The notes under the pieces are model-generated. The model was not told the origin of the DNA and searched no databases. It saw nothing but the letters and a program-made list of their open reading frames with translations. The translations under genes were made by a program, and so were the position numbers. A stretch of DNA of 64,000 nucleotides from Bacteroidaceae bacterium (GTDB taxonomy: Bacteria > Bacteroidota > Bacteroidia > Bacteroidales > Bacteroidaceae), in assembly GCA_017651245.1 (NCBI GenBank), contig JAGCDQ010000022.1, positions 62,001 through 126,000 of the forward strand. Direction: 5' to 3'. Of the stretch, positions 56,329-64,000 are shown in pieces; within the stretch, counting starts at the first letter, position 1, and each line of letters begins with the position of its first letter.

Positions 56329-57933
56329 ATGAAAGGCTTTACTAACACAATTCTCATGAGTGCAGCATGGTTCTGCCTGGCAGGGCAGATGAGCGCACAA
56401 AACGTGACTCAATTCCGTGTGACCAATCACGAACAGCAGACCATCGATGGCTTTGGAGCCAGCGATGCGTGGAGCATGTGGCAAATAGGGCAGTGGGAGG
56501 ACTCCCTCCAAACCCAAGTGGCTGATTGGCTCTTCTCGTCTGAGAGTAATGCAGATGGTTCCCCAAAGGGCATAGGACTGAGTATCTGGCGATTCAATGC
56601 TGGAACAGGTAGCGCAGCACAGGGCGATGCTGCACAAATCAATCGTGACACCCGTACCGAAGTCTATGCCAAGCAGACAGGCCAGCGTCAGTTCCTGAAG
56701 TTGGCAAAGGAACGTGGAGTGCCCACCTTCTTGGCGTTCTACAACTCGCCTCCAGTTCATCTCACTCAGAACGGACTCGCCACCAACACTGGTCGTGACG
56801 GCACTTTCAACCTGAAACCAGACGCCTACGATGACTTTGCCGCCTACATTGCCGAGATGCTCCAAACGGCAGAGAAAGAGGATGGCATCCATTTCGACTA
56901 TGTGTGTCCTGTGAACGAACCCGACGGACATTGGAACTGGCAAGGTCCTAAGCAAGAAGGTTCTCCTGCCACGAATCGGGAGGTGGCACATATCGCTCGC
57001 GAGATGAGCAAGGAGTTTGTCTGTCGTGGCATCACCACCAAAATACTGATCAACGAATCCAGTGATTTCCGTTGTATGTTTGCCACCCATCAGACCGATT
57101 GGCAACGTGGCTACGAGATTCAAGCCTTCTGGAATCCCGATTCCACCGACACCTACGTGGGCAATCTCCCCAACATCGCTCCTGTGATGGCTGGACACTC
57201 CTATTGGACCAACACCCCCATCCTCAAGCCAGGCACCAGAGGCTATGAACGCACAGGATTGTACGGCTTCCGTAAACGCCTGAAAGATGCCTTTGATAAG
57301 GTGGGTCTCGATTTTTGGATGACTGAACTCTGCATCATGTCCAACGACGAAGAGATTCATGGGGGTGGCGGTTTCGACTATTCGATGGAGGTAGCCCTCT
57401 ATGTGGCGCGTGTCATGCACTACGACCTGACCGTCGCCAATGCCCGTTCGTGGCAATGGTGGCGAGCTGCTGGTGGCAACTATAAGGACGGATTGATTTA
57501 CATGAGTAACAGAAGACCTACACGCCGAACGGCTCTCCCCATAGAAGGGGAGAAGTCCGCAGGACAAAGGGGGTCTGGTCATTTCGTGCGTGACTCCAAA
57601 CTTATGTGGACGTTGGGCAACTTCTCCCGTTTCATTCGTCCTGGAGCCGTGCGTATTGATGTAGAGGGCACGATGGAAATCGATGGACTCATGCTTTCAG
57701 CCTATAAGAATACAGATGGAACCCTCGCCATTGTCGCCATCAACTACAGCAAAGATGATCGCCCCATCAGCATCAACCTCCAACCTCAAGTCTCCAATCT
57801 CAAACCTCGAACCACCACCGCCTATCGCACTTCCGACGTGGAAGGTGAGAATCTCAAGAACATCGGCAAAGTGGACTTGAAGAATGCGCTCTTGCCAGCA
57901 CGCTCTGTTACCACTTTTGTGGTTGAAAAGTAA
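56329..57933 (+). CDS. GH30-family glycosidase, possibly endo-beta-1,6-galactanase
   Basis: Start at ATG 56329 gives a signal peptide (MKGFTNTILMSAAWFCLAGQMSAQ). The barrel shows IDGFGASDAWSMW, the acid/base Glu in CPVNEPDGHWNWQG and the nucleophile Glu in DFWMTELCIMS. GGFDYSMEVALYVARVMHYDL resembles the GH30 subfamily with endo-beta-1,6-galactanases, different from the xylanase-like GH30 at 4181. A stretch of about 20 residues (near residues 398-420: RRPTRRTALPIEGEKSAG) is encoded by a palindromic repeat and looks like an insertion; the frame is kept. Substrate is uncertain; galactan would fit the neighbouring GH2 and L-galactose genes. Confidence 0.82.
   Translation: MKGFTNTILMSAAWFCLAGQMSAQNVTQFRVTNHEQQTIDGFGASDAWSMWQIGQWEDSLQTQVADWLFSSESNADGSPKGIGLSIWRFNAGTGSAAQGDAAQINRDTRTEVYAKQTGQRQFLKLAKERGVPTFLAFYNSPPVHLTQNGLATNTGRDGTFNLKPDAYDDFAAYIAEMLQTAEKEDGIHFDYVCPVNEPDGHWNWQGPKQEGSPATNREVAHIAREMSKEFVCRGITTKILINESSDFRCMFATHQTDWQRGYEIQAFWNPDSTDTYVGNLPNIAPVMAGHSYWTNTPILKPGTRGYERTGLYGFRKRLKDAFDKVGLDFWMTELCIMSNDEEIHGGGGFDYSMEVALYVARVMHYDLTVANARSWQWWRAAGGNYKDGLIYMSNRRPTRRTALPIEGEKSAGQRGSGHFVRDSKLMWTLGNFSRFIRPGAVRIDVEGTMEIDGLMLSAYKNTDGTLAIVAINYSKDDRPISINLQPQVSNLKPRTTTAYRTSDVEGENLKNIGKVDLKNALLPARSVTTFVVEK
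57533..57575 (+). repeat. Palindromic repeat inserted in frame in the GH30 gene
   Basis: Two small hairpins lie side by side: TCTCCCC/GGGGAGA around ATAGAA (57534-57553) and GTCC-GCA-GGAC (57555-57565). The segment has no counterpart in the protein's family pattern and looks like an intergenic repeat that has landed inside a gene. Confidence 0.6.
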
Positions 57934-58020: not shown

Positions 58021-58116
58021 ATGGCAAATTATAGCAACACACTGCGACTTAACCTTTTGGCACTACGACTTACTGGGTCGGAGGTGAGAAAGGTGCGTGT
58101 GTGCTGTCAGGCATAA
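58021..58116 (+). CDS. leuL: Leucine-rich leader peptide of the leu operon
   Basis: A 31-codon frame, MANYSNTLRLNLLALRLTG followed by SEVRKVRVCCQA, has six leucine codons within codons 8-17 (CTG, CTT, CTT, TTG, CTA, CTT). It lies between the promoter and a hairpin set typical of transcription attenuation. Ribosome stalling at the leucine codons when leucyl-tRNA is scarce would allow the antiterminator to form. It is too short for ordinary gene calling. Attenuation follows from the arrangement; it was not tested. Confidence 0.88.
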   Translation: MANYSNTLRLNLLALRLTGSEVRKVRVCCQA

Positions 58117-58171
58117 CGATATAAAAAGTATGTTTAACCTTTCTCACAACTGTGGGGAAGGTTTTGCTTTT
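58084..58171 (+). terminator. Attenuator of the leu operon
   Basis: Terminator: ACCTTTCTCACA with TGTGGGGAAGGT (58137-58162; 12 bp with three G-U pairs) followed by TTTTGCTTTT. Antiterminator: GTGAGAAAGGT at 58084-58094, inside the leader frame, is perfectly complementary to 58137-58147, the left arm of the terminator. The two folds exclude each other. Confidence 0.88.
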
Positions 58172-58223: not shown

Positions 58224-59726
58224 ATGGCAGATAGATTATTTATTTTTGACACAACGCTCCGCGATGGCGAGCAGGTGCCAGGATGTCAGCTCAACACTGT
58301 TGAGAAGATTCAGGTGGCTAAGCAGCTGGAGGCGCTGGGTGTCGATGTCATCGAGGCTGGTTTCCCTATCTCCAGCCCTGGCGATTTCAACAGTGTGGTG
58401 GAAATCTCGAAAGCGGTCACTTGGCCTACCATCTGTGCGTTGACCCGTGCAGTGGAGAAGGACATTGACGTGGCTGCCGAGGCACTTCAGTATGCAAAGC
58501 ACAAGCGTATCCACACGGGTATCGGCACATCGCCTTCACACATCAAGTACAAGTTCAACTCCACTCCAGAGGAAATCATCGAACGTGCTGTGGCTGCTGT
58601 GAAATATGCCAAGCGGTACGTGGAGGATGTGGAGTTTTATGCTGAGGATGCAGGTCGTACGGACAACGAGTATCTGGCTCGTGTGATTGACGCTGTGACC
58701 AAGGCTGGTGCAACGGTTTGTAACATCCCCGACACGACGGGCTTCCGTGTGCCAAACGAATATCACGAGAAAATCAAGTACCTCTATGAGCACGTGGATG
58801 CTTTTGCTGCAGGCAAGTCCATCCTCTCTACTCACTGCCACAATGACCTCGGCATGGCTACTGCCAACACGGTGGCTGGTGTGCTGGGTGGTGCCCGTCA
58901 GGTGGAGGTGACCATCAACGGTATCGGTGAACGTGCTGGTAACACGTCTCTCGAAGAGGTGGCGATGATCTTCAAGACACATCCTGACCTCGGCATCGAG
59001 ACGAACATCAATACGACGAAGATTTATCCGACAAGCCGTATGGTGTCTTCGTTGATGAACATGCCTGTGCAGCCTAACAAGGCGATTGTGGGTAAGAATG
59101 CCTTTGCTCATTCTAGCGGTATCCATCAGGATGGTGTGCTGAAGAACGCATCTACTTATGAGATCATGGACCCAAGGGATGTGGGAATCGACGATAACGC
59201 TATCGTGCTGACGGCTCGTTCAGGTCGTGCTGCCTTGAAGCATCGTCTGAGCGTGAATGGCGTGGAAGTGGAAGGCGAGAAGCTTGACCAGATTTATGAG
59301 GAGTTCCTGAAACTGGCTGACAAGAAGAAGGAAGTGACGGACGACGACATCCTCGTATTGGCTGGTGCAGAGCGTAGTGCTGCCCACAACGTGAAACTGG
59401 ATTATCTGCAGGTGACCACTGGTAAGGGCGTTCGCTCTGTAGCTTCTATCGGTTTGCAGGTGGCAAACGAGCATTTCGAGGCTGCTGCATCGGGCAATGG
59501 TCCTGTAGATGCTGCCATTAATGCCTTGAAGTGCATCATCAAGCGCAAGATGACTCTCAAGGAATTCACCATCCAAGCCATCTCGAAGGGTTCCGACGAC
59601 ATGGGTAAGGTGCACATGCAGGTGGAGTACAACGGTCACCTCTACTATGGTTTTGGTGCCAACACCGACATCGTCACCGCTTCCGTCGAGGCATATATTG
59701 ACTGTATCAATAAATTTAGAGGCTAA
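58224..59726 (+). CDS. leuA: 2-isopropylmalate synthase
   Basis: The 500-residue protein condenses acetyl-CoA with 2-ketoisovalerate, the first step of leucine synthesis. [15 protein letters not shown] and the metal-binding [14 protein letters not shown] are present in the catalytic barrel (about 1-275), [16 protein letters not shown] in the linker, and a C-terminal leucine-sensing domain (about 365-500), so it should be feedback-inhibited. It follows the attenuator. The stop overlaps the leuC start by one base (TAATG). Close paralogues (citramalate or homocitrate synthases) cannot be fully excluded, but leuC and leuD next to it support LeuA. Confidence 0.96.
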
Positions 59727-61117
59727 TGGGAAAGACATTATTTGATAAGATTTGGGATGCCCACGTGGTGCAGAACGTGGAGGATGGTCCCACACAATTG
59801 TATATCGACCGCTTGTATGCGCATGAGGTGACGAGTCCGCAGGCGTTCGACACATTGAGAGACAAGAACATCAAAGTGTTCCGTCCTGATCATGTGGTGG
59901 CTATGCCCGACCACAACACACCTTCTGACCAGCAGGAAGTTATCAACGACCCTGTAGGTCGCAAGCAGGTAGAGACCTTGAAAGCCAATTGTGAGGAGTT
60001 TGGCATCAAGCACTTTGCAATGGGTACAAAGGACAATGGTATCATCCACGTGGTGGGTCCTGAGAAGGCACTGTCGTTGCCAGGCATGACCATCGTGTGT
60101 GGCGACTCTCACACTTCCACACATGGTGCTGTGGGTGCCATCGCGATGGGTATCGGTACCAGCGAGGTGGCTCAGGTTTTGGCTTCACAATGCATCTTGC
60201 AGAGCAAGCCCAAGACCATGCGCATCAACATCGAAGGCACGCTGCCTGAGAAGACCACTGCCAAGGATGTGGCACTCTATATCATGGCTCAGATGACCAC
60301 TTCGGGTGCGACAGGCTATGCCGTGGAATATGCAGGTTCAGCTATTCGCAACATGAGCATGGAGGGACGTCTGACGCTCTCTAACCTCTCTATCGAGATG
60401 GGTAGCCGTGCAGGTCTGATTGCGCCTGATGAAACCACTTTCGCTTATCTGAAGGGTCGCGAGTATGCGCCTAAGGGTGAGGATTGGGACAAGGCTGTGG
60501 AAGAGTGGAAGAAACTTTACTCTGACAAGGATGCCGTGTTCGACAAGGAGGTGACTTATCGTGCCGAAAACATCGCCCCACGTATCACCTACGGAACAAA
60601 CCCCGGTGCTGGTATTGCCATTGATGAGGCGATTCCTACGCTCGAAGAGATTCCAGAGGCTGACCACGTTCAGTTCCTCAGCATGTTGGAATATATGCAA
60701 TTCAAACCTGGTCAGAAACTTGAAGGCGTGCCAGTGGATTACTGCTTCCTCGGTGCTTGCACCAATGGTCGCATCGAAGACTTCCGTGCTTTCGCCTCTG
60801 TGGTGAAGGGCAAGAAGAAGGCTGACAATGTGGTGGCTTGGCTCGTACCTGGTTCTTGGCTCGTTCGTCAGCAAATCATCGACGAGGGCATCGACAAGAT
60901 TCTGGAAGAGGCAGGTTTCGAACTCCGTCTCCCATCTTGTTCTGCTTGTCTTGCCATGAATCCCGACAAGGTGCCAGCAGGTAAGCTTGCCATCTCTACC
61001 AGCAACCGCAACTTCGTCGGTCGCCAAGGTCCTGGTGCTCGCACTATCCTTGCTTCACCACTGGTTGTGGCAGCATCAGCAATCACAGGAGTAGTAACTG
61101 ACCCAAGAAAGATGTAA
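59726..61117 (+). CDS. leuC: 3-isopropylmalate dehydratase large subunit
   Basis: The 463-residue aconitase-type protein isomerises 2- to 3-isopropylmalate together with LeuD. The 4Fe-4S cysteines are present: Cys345 in [11 protein letters not shown] and Cys405 and Cys408 in [32 protein letters not shown] is the family's signature. It starts inside the leuA stop and ends four bases before leuD. Confidence 0.97.
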
Positions 61118-61121
61118 GATT

Positions 61122-62300
61122 ATGGCTAAAGAGAAATTTGACATTATCCAGTCAACCTGTATTCCTATCCAGATTGACAATTGCAATACCGACCTCATCA
61201 TCCCTGCCCGCTACTTGGCAAGCACCACTCGTGATCCCAAGTTCTTCGGTGATGCCTTTATGCACGACCTCCGTTTTGATGCAGAAGGAAATCCTGTGGC
61301 AGACTTTGTGATGAACCAACCTGAGTATGCAGAGGCACCTCGTAAGGGTGTGCACGAGATTATCGTGGGCGGTCAGAACTGGGGTTCTGGTTCCAGCCGT
61401 GAACATGCTGCATGGGCGATTGCTGGTTATGGCGTTCGTGTCGTCATCTCCAGTTCGTTTGCCGACATCCATCGCAACAACCTCCTCAACTGCTTCGTGC
61501 TTCCTGTCATCGTGAGCAAGGAGTTCCAGCAGGAGTTGTTCGACAGCATTGCTGCCAATCCTCAGACGGAGGTGAAGGTGGATGTGCCTAACCAAACAGT
61601 GACCAACCTCGCCACTGGCAACGCTGAGCACTTCGACATCAACTCCTATAAGAAGTACTGCCTCATGAATGCCTACGATGACATCGATTTTCTCCTTTCC
61701 AATAAGGACAAGATTGAGGCATACGAGGGACAGGGTGTAGCTTCTGCAGAGGATGCCGCTGTAGTGGAGGAAACTGATTTTCAGGAGCCAGCTGCCCCGA
61801 CATACGTTGAGGCTACCAACGAGGCTCCTGTAGAAGAGCCGGCTGAGGAGGTTGCTCCCATCGAAGTGACTACGCATCATGAGAGTGAGCCTTTCGTACC
61901 CAAGAAACTTCTGCCCATCAATCGTGGATTGGCAAAGTTCTTCTTGTTGAGTATGGTCACGTTAGGTATTTATGGCATTGTTGTGCTTACTCAGATCTCG
62001 AGTGAAATCAACACCGTCGCCACCCGATATGATGGCCGTAAGACTACTAACTATCTGTGGTTCTTCTTCCTTTGGGGATGGCTTACTGGTGGCATCGCAT
62101 TCCTCGTGTGGTTCCACAATCTTAGCAATCGCATCGGCAATGAACTTCAACGCCGTCAGATTCCTTACTCTTTCGGTGCTTCTGACTACTGGCTCTGGTG
62201 CGTTCTGGGTTCTTTTGTGGGTTTCCTTCCATTGATTTACACCTACAAACTGCTGAGTGCGACGAACCAGCTGAATGCTGACTACAATCAGAAAGGATAA
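61122..62300 (+). CDS. leuD: 3-isopropylmalate dehydratase small subunit fused to a three-helix membrane domain
   Basis: Residues 1-200 are an ordinary LeuD with NTDLIIPARYL and GSGSSREHAAWAIAGYGVR. LeuD proteins normally end there. This one runs on with an acidic Glu/Ala/Pro linker (about 205-262) and a DUF4234-like membrane domain (about 264-390) with hydrophobic segments at about 271-291, 310-331 and 356-378. There is no stop or frameshift between the parts in the given sequence. The fusion would tie the leucine isomerase, a soluble enzyme elsewhere, to the inner membrane. leuB is not downstream; the next genes face the other way. The LeuD call is firm, the role of the tail is unknown. Confidence 0.93.
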   Translation: MAKEKFDIIQSTCIPIQIDNCNTDLIIPARYLASTTRDPKFFGDAFMHDLRFDAEGNPVADFVMNQPEYAEAPRKGVHEIIVGGQNWGSGSSREHAAWAIAGYGVRVVISSSFADIHRNNLLNCFVLPVIVSKEFQQELFDSIAANPQTEVKVDVPNQTVTNLATGNAEHFDINSYKKYCLMNAYDDIDFLLSNKDKIEAYEGQGVASAEDAAVVEETDFQEPAAPTYVEATNEAPVEEPAEEVAPIEVTTHHESEPFVPKKLLPINRGLAKFFLLSMVTLGIYGIVVLTQISSEINTVATRYDGRKTTNYLWFFFLWGWLTGGIAFLVWFHNLSNRIGNELQRRQIPYSFGASDYWLWCVLGSFVGFLPLIYTYKLLSATNQLNADYNQKG

Positions 62301-62321
62301 TGATATTTTTATAGATGAATA

Positions 62322-62351
62322 AAGGGGAATGCTTCATTGGGCGTTCCCCTT
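62322..62351. terminator. Bidirectional terminator after leuD
   Basis: AAGGGGAATGC (62322-62332) pairs with GCGTTCCCCTT (62341-62351) with one T-G pair. It lies between the convergent leuD and DUF4298 genes and covers the stop of the latter. Confidence 0.75.
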
Positions 62352-62621
62352 AATGATTTCATCGAGCCTTCTGCTTTCTTCCAGCACATTCCAGATGCCA
62401 TCCTCCGACAGCACGCCTCGCTTCAGGTCCTTTGGTAACTTCCCTTCTTCGTCCGCCTTGCAATCCTGTTTCCATTGCTTGCTGCCCAGATACTTATCCA
62501 GCTTTTCGATAGCCTCCCGAGCCTCATCATATTGCTCTAGAGCTGCCGACAGTTCCTTCACTGCCGCCGATGCTCGCTCCAGACACGCCTCCATCTGTTT
62601 GATTCTTTCAATTCGTTCCAT
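62334..62621 (-). CDS. DUF4298 family protein
   Basis: ATG 62621 is preferred over 62720 because GGAGGAAGG lies about eight bases upstream and DUF4298 proteins start like MERIERIKQME. The 95 residues are helical, with the family's C-terminal KLPKDLKRGVLSEDGIWNVLEE. It is a soluble protein of unknown function. A 7-bp hairpin (62670-62687, GCGGAAA/TTTCCGC) lies between it and the upstream gene. Confidence 0.78.
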   Translation of the reverse strand: MERIERIKQMEACLERASAAVKELSAALEQYDEAREAIEKLDKYLGSKQWKQDCKADEEGKLPKDLKRGVLSEDGIWNVLEESRRLDEIIKGNAQ

Positions 62622-62701
62622 TATGTTCCTTCCTCCTCCACGATTCATATAATACCAAGAAGCTTTCTTGCGGAAAGAGTTTTCCGCCTTCACGTGTATG
62701 A

Positions 62702-62986
62702 TTATATCACGTTCAGCCATACCTCTTTGTCGTGCATAACTACATCATTTGACATCGCAGGATTTTCTTCGTCCGACTCGTCAAACCAATCTTCTTCTGG
62801 TTCTTCGTATGGGAAGGGTCGATTTTCCATAAAGTCCATATTCTCAAGAAACTCCACAGTGGAAGGATGCAGATTCTTTTTAAGGTAATCTGCTTTCTCT
62901 TTCTGTGAAGCACCCTGCCATTTGTATGCTACAGCAGGTTCTTTCACCCTGCTCTGAGCTTCATCATGTTCAAAGTTATATTCCAT
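62702..62986 (-). CDS. Small acidic protein of unknown function
   Basis: ATG 62986 (MEYNFEHDEAQ) is 21 bases after a good promoter -7 element, so it is chosen over the frame start at 63049. The 94-residue protein is acidic (EEPEEDWFDESDEENP) and has no membrane segment. I do not recognise a family. It may form a unit with the DUF4298 gene downstream. Confidence 0.65.
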   Translation of the reverse strand: MEYNFEHDEAQSRVKEPAVAYKWQGASQKEKADYLKKNLHPSTVEFLENMDFMENRPFPYEEPEEDWFDESDEENPAMSNDVVMHDKEVWLNVI

Positions 62987-63006
62987 AGCTATATTATTTG
63001 ATGCCA

Positions 63007-63037
63007 CAAAGGTATATAAAAAGAAACTACCCACAAA
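63007..63037 (-). promoter_or_regulatory. Promoter of the small acidic protein gene
   Basis: TTTG (complement of 63034-63037) and TACCTTTG (complement of 63007-63014), 19-base spacer. Confidence 0.75.
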
Positions 63038-63175
63038 GAGTTCTCGCATTTTTTTTGCTGAACCCAGGGTTATTCTTCAAAACCCCCATTTTTTGCAAAG
63101 CAGAAAGGTCACGTTCAATGGTGCGTTTGGCTCACCGACAAGTCTTCGACATTTGTTTGCCTCTGCACTTTAAAA
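63027..63175 (-). pseudogene. Broken helix-turn-helix fragment
   Basis: The minus strand reads AKRTIERDLSALQKMGVLK in one frame, the wording of winged-helix domains at the end of RecG-like/AAA-4 or Fic-type proteins. The preceding EDLSVS lies in another frame, and a stop is in the first frame directly before the match, so a frameshift has broken it. It ends at a stop at 63027. Only about 50 codons remain. The promoter of the next gene is inside it. Confidence 0.5.
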
Positions 63176-63229
63176 AACACCTAACAACCTAACATTCGCT
63201 TTCAAATGGGTTGTGGTTCAGTGAGTTGT

Positions 63230-63262
63230 CTATGTTAGGTCTCGCACGAAGACCTAACATAG
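63230..63262. repeat. 13-bp perfect hairpin with repeated CCTAACAT words
   Basis: CTATGTTAGGTCT (63230-63242) and AGACCTAACATAG (63250-63262) are perfectly complementary around CGCACGA. Further CCTAACA words flank it from 63180 to 63270. It lies just downstream of the VirE-like gene and may end its transcript or mark an element border. Confidence 0.65.
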
Positions 63263-63278
63263 ACCTAACATTTGCTAA

Positions 63279-64000
63279 TCAGGCAGCAGTTAGAGGAATC
63301 ACCTTGTAGAAGGGAATGTTGCTGCGATTGGCATGCTCGAATCCCAATTCCCGCATGGCAACACCCAGATGAACCCTCGTGCCGTGATTGATTTTCACTT
63401 GTGGGTACTCCTGCTGAATCACCTGCAACAACTGAGTGCTGTTCATCGCTCTCGGCGTTTCTCCATCCAATGGCTTTCTGAAGCAGACAGCCACAATCTC
63501 AGCCATATCCTTTTGTTCCATATAACCCAAGTTGATCTCTTGAATGCGAGCCACCTCCAGGTTGTTGAACCAATAAGGCGCCTTTGCCACATTCAGTTCA
63601 TGCAGCACTTGTGCATACAACTGGTCATAGTCAATCTCACCCGTGTTGTCGATGAACTGCCCCTGAGGAATCGTCAGGCAGATATAGCGACGGCTACCCG
63701 TTGCATCCGTCAAGGGGTGCGGATTGTTCGTCGAAGCCACGAACGAGGCATAACGAGGCCTGTCTTCCTGCGAGGCACCATAGATGGGGCGTCCGTTCAC
63801 CTTGTTCTTCGAAAGTGTCTGCTTCAGGGCAGGGTGCTGGCTCGGACGGATGGCATCCAACTCATCGAGGTTCACCAAGAGGTTGTTCGTCAGCGCCATC
63901 TCCTTGTCGAACTTGTTCGAGAGGTTCAGGTGATCCAGATAGTACTGGCGCAGATGTGGAGGGAGCAACCTCAGCAAGAAGGTCGTCTTTCCACATCCCT
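63279..64000 (-). CDS. VirE-like P-loop protein, 3' part (cut by window end)
   Basis: The frame is open to the end of the window, so the N-terminus is missing; a TTG at 63977 is not the start. The first visible residues, GCGKTTFLLRLL, are a Walker A loop, and LLVNLDELD is a Walker B-like strand. ASTNNPHPLTDATGSRRYICLTI matches the VirE/DUF3874 group of helicase-like ATPases found on Bacteroidetes mobile elements, usually with a primase-like N-terminal part. The C-terminal 90 residues (ARAMNSTQLLQVIQQEYPQV-type) form a small helical domain. It suggests that an integrated element begins here and runs to the right. Confidence 0.8.
   Translation of the reverse strand, partial: GCGKTTFLLRLLPPHLRQYYLDHLNLSNKFDKEMALTNNLLVNLDELDAIRPSQHPALKQTLSKNKVNGRPIYGASQEDRPRYASFVASTNNPHPLTDATGSRRYICLTIPQGQFIDNTGEIDYDQLYAQVLHELNVAKAPYWFNNLEVARIQEINLGYMEQKDMAEIVAVCFRKPLDGETPRAMNSTQLLQVIQQEYPQVKINHGTRVHLGVAMRELGFEHANRSNIPFYKVIPLTAA

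Follow-up and report, generated by a model that had tools for sequence, protein, structure and literature searches.

Isopropylmalate isomerase is an oxygen-sensitive iron-sulfur enzyme that is treated as soluble. Its small subunit LeuD, represented among solved structures by PDB entries 2hcu and 3q3w, is known in bacteria as a soluble chain of approximately 200 residues. Proteins of the DUF4234 family (PF14018) carry a three-segment membrane domain, for which the PDB contains no solved relative at E values up to 1, and in the one paper found to name it the family is just a table entry for another protein, with no function given. Two further systems resemble features described below. In Thermus thermophilus dnaX, transcriptional slippage at a run of nine adenines (A9) is reported to be highly efficient and to yield a second product with another C-terminus (PMC1088944). 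In Escherichia coli, as described in PMC11148124, prophage e14 is inserted in the 3' part of the metabolic gene icd, the frame of which is kept with small changes, and a partial copy of the old icd 3' end (icdC, 165 bp) lies beyond the insert.

Here, we describe a gene, present in a group of gut and rumen bacteria and studied in a Bacteroidaceae genome, in which LeuD continues without a stop into a DUF4234 domain. It lies in a stretch of 64,000 nucleotides, hereafter the window (G000:C13:62001-126000), which belongs to a draft genome of 2.83 Mb that is 86% complete. Like known LeuD proteins, the product has a full-length domain with the GSGSSREHAAWAI motif, is encoded directly after leuC and is the only copy found, but it adds an acidic and membrane tail of 188 residues. 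Like DUF4234 proteins, it contains the same three-segment domain, scoring above the Pfam cut-off. Operon neighbors have also merged in two other Bacteroidales loci, a LeuC-LeuD protein of 717 aa (L187) and LeuD joined to an HMGL-like enzyme (L188), the junction in one of them being at the LeuD C-terminus. However, both of these join one soluble enzyme to another, and of the three arrangements only LeuD-DUF4234 includes a membrane part.

Architecture of the fusion and its operon

The fusion gene occupies positions 61122..62300 on the plus strand and is open from its ATG to a TAA, encoding 392 amino acids. An earlier note, made from the letters of the window, had described LeuD joined without a stop to an acidic linker and a DUF4234-like domain in a chain of this length, and had named a stop or frameshift in the linker as grounds for abandoning the idea; the description is borne out, as neither is present, the frame is open throughout and both domains exceed their Pfam cut-offs. 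The LeuD domain comprises residues 1-204 (61122..61733, plus strand), with Aconitase_C at residues 6-132 (84.3 bits against a cut-off of 22.8). When a profile of 16 fused proteins was compared with solved LeuD chains, 2hcu covered positions 4-204 and 3q3w positions 4-206, and the LeuD part is therefore full length; standalone LeuD proteins of relatives likewise end near residue 204. The linker, delimited by alignment, charge count and a motif, spans residues 205-262 (61734..61907, plus strand) and contains 15 aspartate and glutamate residues against two lysine and arginine residues. The DUF4234 membrane domain follows at residues 263-392 plus the stop (61908..62300, plus strand), the Pfam match covering residues 268-339 (61.6 bits against a cut-off of 25.3). 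Kyte-Doolittle hydropathy predicts transmembrane segments at residues 270-288 (61929..61985), 312-330 (62055..62111) and 356-378 (62187..62255), all on the plus strand, in agreement with the three segments proposed earlier.

Positive charges precede the first segment and sit between the second and third, which is compatible with a topology in which the N-terminus is inside, although the bias is weak, as the presumed outside loop has three lysine and arginine and two aspartate and glutamate residues, the same as the presumed inside loop. Given that charge and hydropathy are both compatible with a cytoplasmic LeuD, anchoring is plausible. An AlphaFold model of the whole fusion (mean pLDDT 46, shallow alignment) gives the topology no support. 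A search of the genome found a single LeuD match, the fused gene, and so leucine synthesis would rely on the fusion unless the missing part of the genome holds another copy. Literature searches on LeuD with membrane or fusion, and on leu operon attenuation in Bacteroides, found no such fusion. The LeuD-DUF4234 architecture is real, conserved (see below) and not found in print.

Directly upstream of the fusion gene are leuA (58224..59726, plus strand), encoding a 2-isopropylmalate synthase of 500 aa with Pfam HMGL-like and LeuA_dimer domains, and leuC (59726..61117, plus strand), encoding the isomerase large subunit of 463 aa (Pfam Aconitase, 534 bits). Reading of the sequence ahead of leuA shows a leucine-rich leader peptide, MANYSNTLRLNLLALRLTGSEVRKVRVCCQA (58021..58116, plus strand), and in the gap between leader and leuA a terminator-like hairpin with 12 pairs and a T-rich tail (58136..58163, plus strand). 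The hairpin match alone proves nothing, as the scan returned two such sites overall against a mean of 4.0 in shuffled sequence, and Rfam gave no match between 57500 and 64000. A leader with the pattern LxLRL[ST] is present in 33 of the 40 leuA upstream regions examined in the genus. Leader and hairpin together probably constitute a Bacteroidales leu attenuator, in line with the leucine attenuation control that the earlier note envisaged, and this would probably place the tail under leucine control, whether it tethers the enzyme or is a mere passenger.

Distribution and history of the fusion

In order to determine how widely the fusion occurs, we searched 45 genomes of the genus and examined the leuD region of each of the 43 that gave a match; G013 and G028 gave none. 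LeuD and DUF4234 share one frame in 17 of the 45 genomes, the window's own included, and a search for conserved chains of this kind, as had been suggested, therefore shows that the fusion is not unique to one assembly. Fifteen other full-length fused proteins were aligned and are 76-98% identical to that of the window; the fused gene of G020 has lost its first 20 LeuD codons at a contig end, residues 1-66 being found on another contig. In two genomes, G009 and G015, a DUF4234 frame directly follows leuD but is one frame off (hereafter the split genes). In 23 genomes LeuD stands alone, ending at approximately residue 203-224 with no adjacent DUF4234; G001, which is among these 23, carries a distant standalone DUF4234 gene on a separate contig. 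In G039 (L075), LeuD is in three frame-shifted pieces that may reflect a pseudogene or assembly errors.

Beyond these 45 genomes, a scan of named genomes returned 105 DUF4234 loci, of which the best 80 comprised 15 LeuD fusions, one record that is that of G009 and 64 others. The fusion records derive from metagenome-assembled genomes (MAGs) of several projects. The 64 standalone loci, from records titled Clostridia, Oscillospiraceae, Bifidobacteriaceae, Paludibacteraceae and others, differ from the fusion in that none includes LeuD, and their frames are mostly about 130-310 aa from the first ATG. No neighbor recurs in more than four of these 64 loci, and neighborhood was dismissed as evidence. 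DUF4234 matches occur in 25 of 399 genomes of the family, including 10 from outside the genus, in which the open frames are at most 262 aa and too short for a fusion except in G124, the 366-aa frame of which was read and lacks LeuD; several of these loci on the minus strand were uninformative. In 295 genomes of the order, LeuD was found in 118, and beyond the window's own gene three had an open frame exceeding 300 aa around LeuD: the LeuC-LeuD fusion, LeuD with an HMGL-like (LeuA-like) enzyme, and an ordinary LeuD that is open upstream by chance. A 462-aa frame in L114 was considered as a second DUF4234 fusion and rejected; the stretch contains stops and a one-base difference from relatives.

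A tree of 43 rows was built from LeuA, LeuC and LeuD. All genomes with fused or split genes fall within one group of 28 rows that also holds nine genomes with LeuD only, on a branch with weak support (85/56). The nine occupy about seven places in the tree, and because they sit among fused genomes the tail appears to be dispensable for LeuD. Explaining the state "fused" requires five changes on the tree, and "fused or split" six. This is consistent with one gain and several losses of the fusion, the order of events being beyond the reach of the tree. In a separate tree of DUF4234 domains, the 19 linked to LeuD form one clade against 30 standalone domains (26 of the 64 loci above and four others), with support of 100/95 and recovery in 100% of 200 bootstrap trees. 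Of 18 pairs compared, 13 allowed dS of the tail to be estimated, and in these the ratio of nonsynonymous to synonymous change (dN/dS) was 0.034-0.170; for the LeuD part it was 0.014-0.081 in all 18. These values place the DUF4234 tail under purifying selection. Depending on the pair, the synonymous distance is larger for LeuD or for the tail, for example 0.77 versus 0.24 and 0.54 versus 1.38, a hint that the tail has recombined.

The linker retains what may be traces of the join. All but one of the 17 fused genes, and both split genes, share a conserved linker half beside DUF4234 (YVEA...EEVAPIEV); the half beside LeuD varies freely in length and sequence. In G010 and G012, an ATG approximately ten codons past the usual LeuD end (METTNEQ..., ATG GAA ACA ACT AAT GAA) looks like an old DUF4234 start. 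The linker of G038 reads through a palindromic repeat that also follows leuD in the unfused G025 and G001, where it is untranslated save for the last few LeuD codons in G025. In addition, the N-terminal region of the standalone DUF4234 protein in G001 is itself acidic and rich in proline, from which we infer that at least part of the acidic stretch came with the DUF4234 protein as its N-terminal region. The two linker halves, the ATG of G010 and G012, the repeat of G038 and the N-terminus of G001 together point to fusion with an operon neighbor through loss of the leuD stop. A phage origin of the tail found no support: 67 stretches of viral contigs matched a pattern, none encoding a relative, and the gene's 3' segment had no match in a phages collection. 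A palindromic repeat of the kind seen in the G038 linker occurs elsewhere in the window, at 57534-57555 on the minus strand, inside the frame of a GH30 glycosidase (…LPIEGEKSAGQRG…).

The downstream island and the position of leuB

The absence of leuB downstream had earlier been taken as a hint that the end of the operon was rearranged when the fusion arose. The absence is confirmed, but leuB lies elsewhere in unfused relatives too. In 39 genomes, fused and unfused, both leuD and leuB were found, on different contigs in 38 and approximately 40 kb apart on the same contig in G002; some contigs are short, such that distant linkage stays possible, yet in none of the 39 is leuB within 20 kb of leuD on one contig. 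We therefore reject loss or rearrangement of leuB as the cause of the fusion.

The unusual region downstream has a different explanation. Immediately downstream of the fusion in G029 and G026 come a cytidylate-kinase-like gene, then genes for a sodium symporter and a porin, and a LeuA-like gene, whereas in G000 these genes lie approximately 23 kb further on, past an island. The island, defined by comparison with these uninterrupted neighbors, is approximately 22.9 kb and extends to C13:147207, its left part occupying 62301..64000 of the window. It encodes a VapE-like helicase, two CHAT proteins, TPR proteins, a caspase-like protein and a TmtA homologue (811 bits in PADLOC), and is defense-like. 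Because the fusion is present but the island absent in G029 and G026, the fusion is the older of the two, which also tells against the proposed rearrangement. The younger insertion accounts for the odd region downstream and is unrelated to leuB.

The island is flanked by the 3' end of the fusion and by a second, partial copy of that end, 221 bp in length: the segment at 62080..62300 (plus strand) recurs beyond the island at G000:C13:147208-147428 with 22 mismatches in 221. The far copy keeps the old end, as its last 84 nt are identical to G029 at 82 positions and identity to G029 is 99.0% over the following 1498 nt, whereas the last 84 nt of the window's gene (62217..62300, plus strand) match G029 at 67. 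Given that the far copy matches G029 and the window's end does so less well, we conclude that the incoming DNA rebuilt the reading frame with changed codons. With its uninterrupted target in close relatives, duplicated 3' end and rebuilt frame, the arrangement resembles e14 in icd (PMC11148124). A point of difference is that no PF00589 integrase is present on contig C13; two are found elsewhere in the genome. G032, a close relative, has island-type sequence after the stop and has retained most of the old 3' codons, a mixed end which indicates that the history of the island involved more than one step.

Two further features of the region were observed. The island contains two copies, 96% identical, of a 502-bp stretch that has a 162-aa ORF (L003:14959-15460 and L004:1823-2323); the ORF belongs to no Pfam family and has one PHROG match of unknown function. 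The gap between leuD or DUF4234 and the symporter ranges from approximately 0.1 to 9 kb between species (L037, L044, L047, L054, L055), which is like an insertion hotspot.

The split genes and possible roles of the tail

G009 and G015, which belong to different lineages in the LeuA, LeuC and LeuD tree, each have an A9 run where leuD gives way to DUF4234. The run in G009 is at LeuD nt 608-616, inside a two-frame overlap at 606-633, and that in G015 is at nt 631-639, straddling the start of the overlap at 633-645; the runs thus differ in position. In both genomes DUF4234 is in the -1 frame relative to LeuD. Runs of at least nine A or T number 11 in 45 loci of the 43 genomes (735,767 bases), and these are the only two inside ORFs of at least 100 aa (642,783 coding bases). 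Approximately 0.003 such runs are expected per 200 nt, a figure that does not discriminate between slippage and mutation, such runs being prone to frameshifts. A conserved slippery site is not a feature of the fused genes, as none of the 17, as read, has a single-base run of seven or more.

The split may be a plain frameshift or a phase-variable tract, with DUF4234 either off or started from a codon of its own, and we regard this as quite possible, if somewhat short of an even chance. Poly-A tracts are slippery for DNA polymerase too (PMC3711429), and in both genomes the conserved YVEA site contains an in-frame GTG, approximately 59 and 11 nt past the leuD stop. The same GTG is present in three of the 16 fused genes with the motif, but as a hint of separate initiation it is weakened by GTG being the commonest valine codon of the fused genes (250/475). 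Against a tail that is simply off, the DUF4234 frame is intact to the conserved C-terminal LNADYN motif in both genomes. More tentatively, the A9 runs could be sites at which slippage of RNA polymerase, or a ribosomal -1 shift, yields a mixture of free LeuD and LeuD-DUF4234. Their placement at the two-frame overlap with DUF4234 in the -1 frame, their rarity in coding sequence and their occurrence in different lineages all favor such slippage, as does the precedent of Thermus dnaX, which obtains two products from an A9 run that, as in G009 and G015, is in the 3' part of the coding region, where a shift would give another C-terminus. Unlike in dnaX, slippage here is merely possible and concerns two relatives and not the window's gene. 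Furthermore, homopolymers also attract indel mutations and assembly errors, so that the placement of the runs is by itself no proof that they are used, and each run is seen in a single MAG (the public record of G009, L092, is the same MAG). The GTG codons, together with an ATG at nt 702 in G015, could start DUF4234 separately, and no stimulating RNA structure follows either run (z scores of 0.88 and -0.47). Given the lack of such a structure, transcriptional slippage would be likelier than a ribosomal shift, if either occurs.

For the fusion itself, we favor a model in which leuD and a DUF4234 gene that immediately followed it in the leu operon became joined once, through loss of the leuD stop, and in which the product tethers the isomerase to the inner membrane. 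The LeuD domain would remain cytoplasmic, paired with LeuC and isomerizing isopropylmalate as usual, and the flexible linker and three membrane helices, with the N-terminus inside, would hold the LeuCD complex at the inner membrane. As the upstream leader would control the operon, the tail would be made together with the leucine enzymes. It would be useful yet dispensable, related lineages having LeuD alone, and in G009 and G015, where the join is broken by one frame at the A9 run, slippage could give both free and anchored LeuD. Judged from sequence comparisons, this operon-neighbor fusion and the proposed tethering are reasonably probable.

Alternatively, the tail may be a passenger that simply came to share one frame with leuD, the halves acting independently, perhaps after cleavage in the linker, and the tethering having no role. 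That the first half of the linker is unconserved and includes read-through repeat sequence would fit such a passenger, as would the existence of DUF4234 as a standalone protein in other bacteria, the LeuD-only state of 23 of the 45 genomes, and the other fusions of LeuD with operon neighbors in Bacteroidales, LeuC-LeuD in G699 and LeuD with a second LeuA-like enzyme in G585. However, separate genes could re-form at any point through a stop or a shift, and the fused frame has nevertheless been kept across many species, with its tail under purifying selection as part of the fusion. We consider a passenger tail possible but doubtful, carrying about half the weight of tethering. An origin of the fusion in sequencing or assembly error, or its restriction to the window's genome, is extremely improbable in view of its presence in 17 of 45 genomes, the 76-98% identity of 15 other proteins and the several MAG projects from which the fusions derive.

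The boldest form of tethering holds that the whole clade moved isopropylmalate isomerase to the inner membrane by means of a permanent DUF4234 tail, and that the join became, independently in two lineages, a slippage site setting the ratio of soluble to anchored enzyme; as a whole we consider this unlikely. If tethering is correct, a conserved membrane-anchored form of the isomerase would be a first clue to the role of DUF4234, the tail being tied to a known reaction, and it would raise the question of why leucine synthesis should take place at the membrane in rumen bacteria. The two genomes with A9 runs would then serve as a natural test for a division of labor between free and anchored enzyme.
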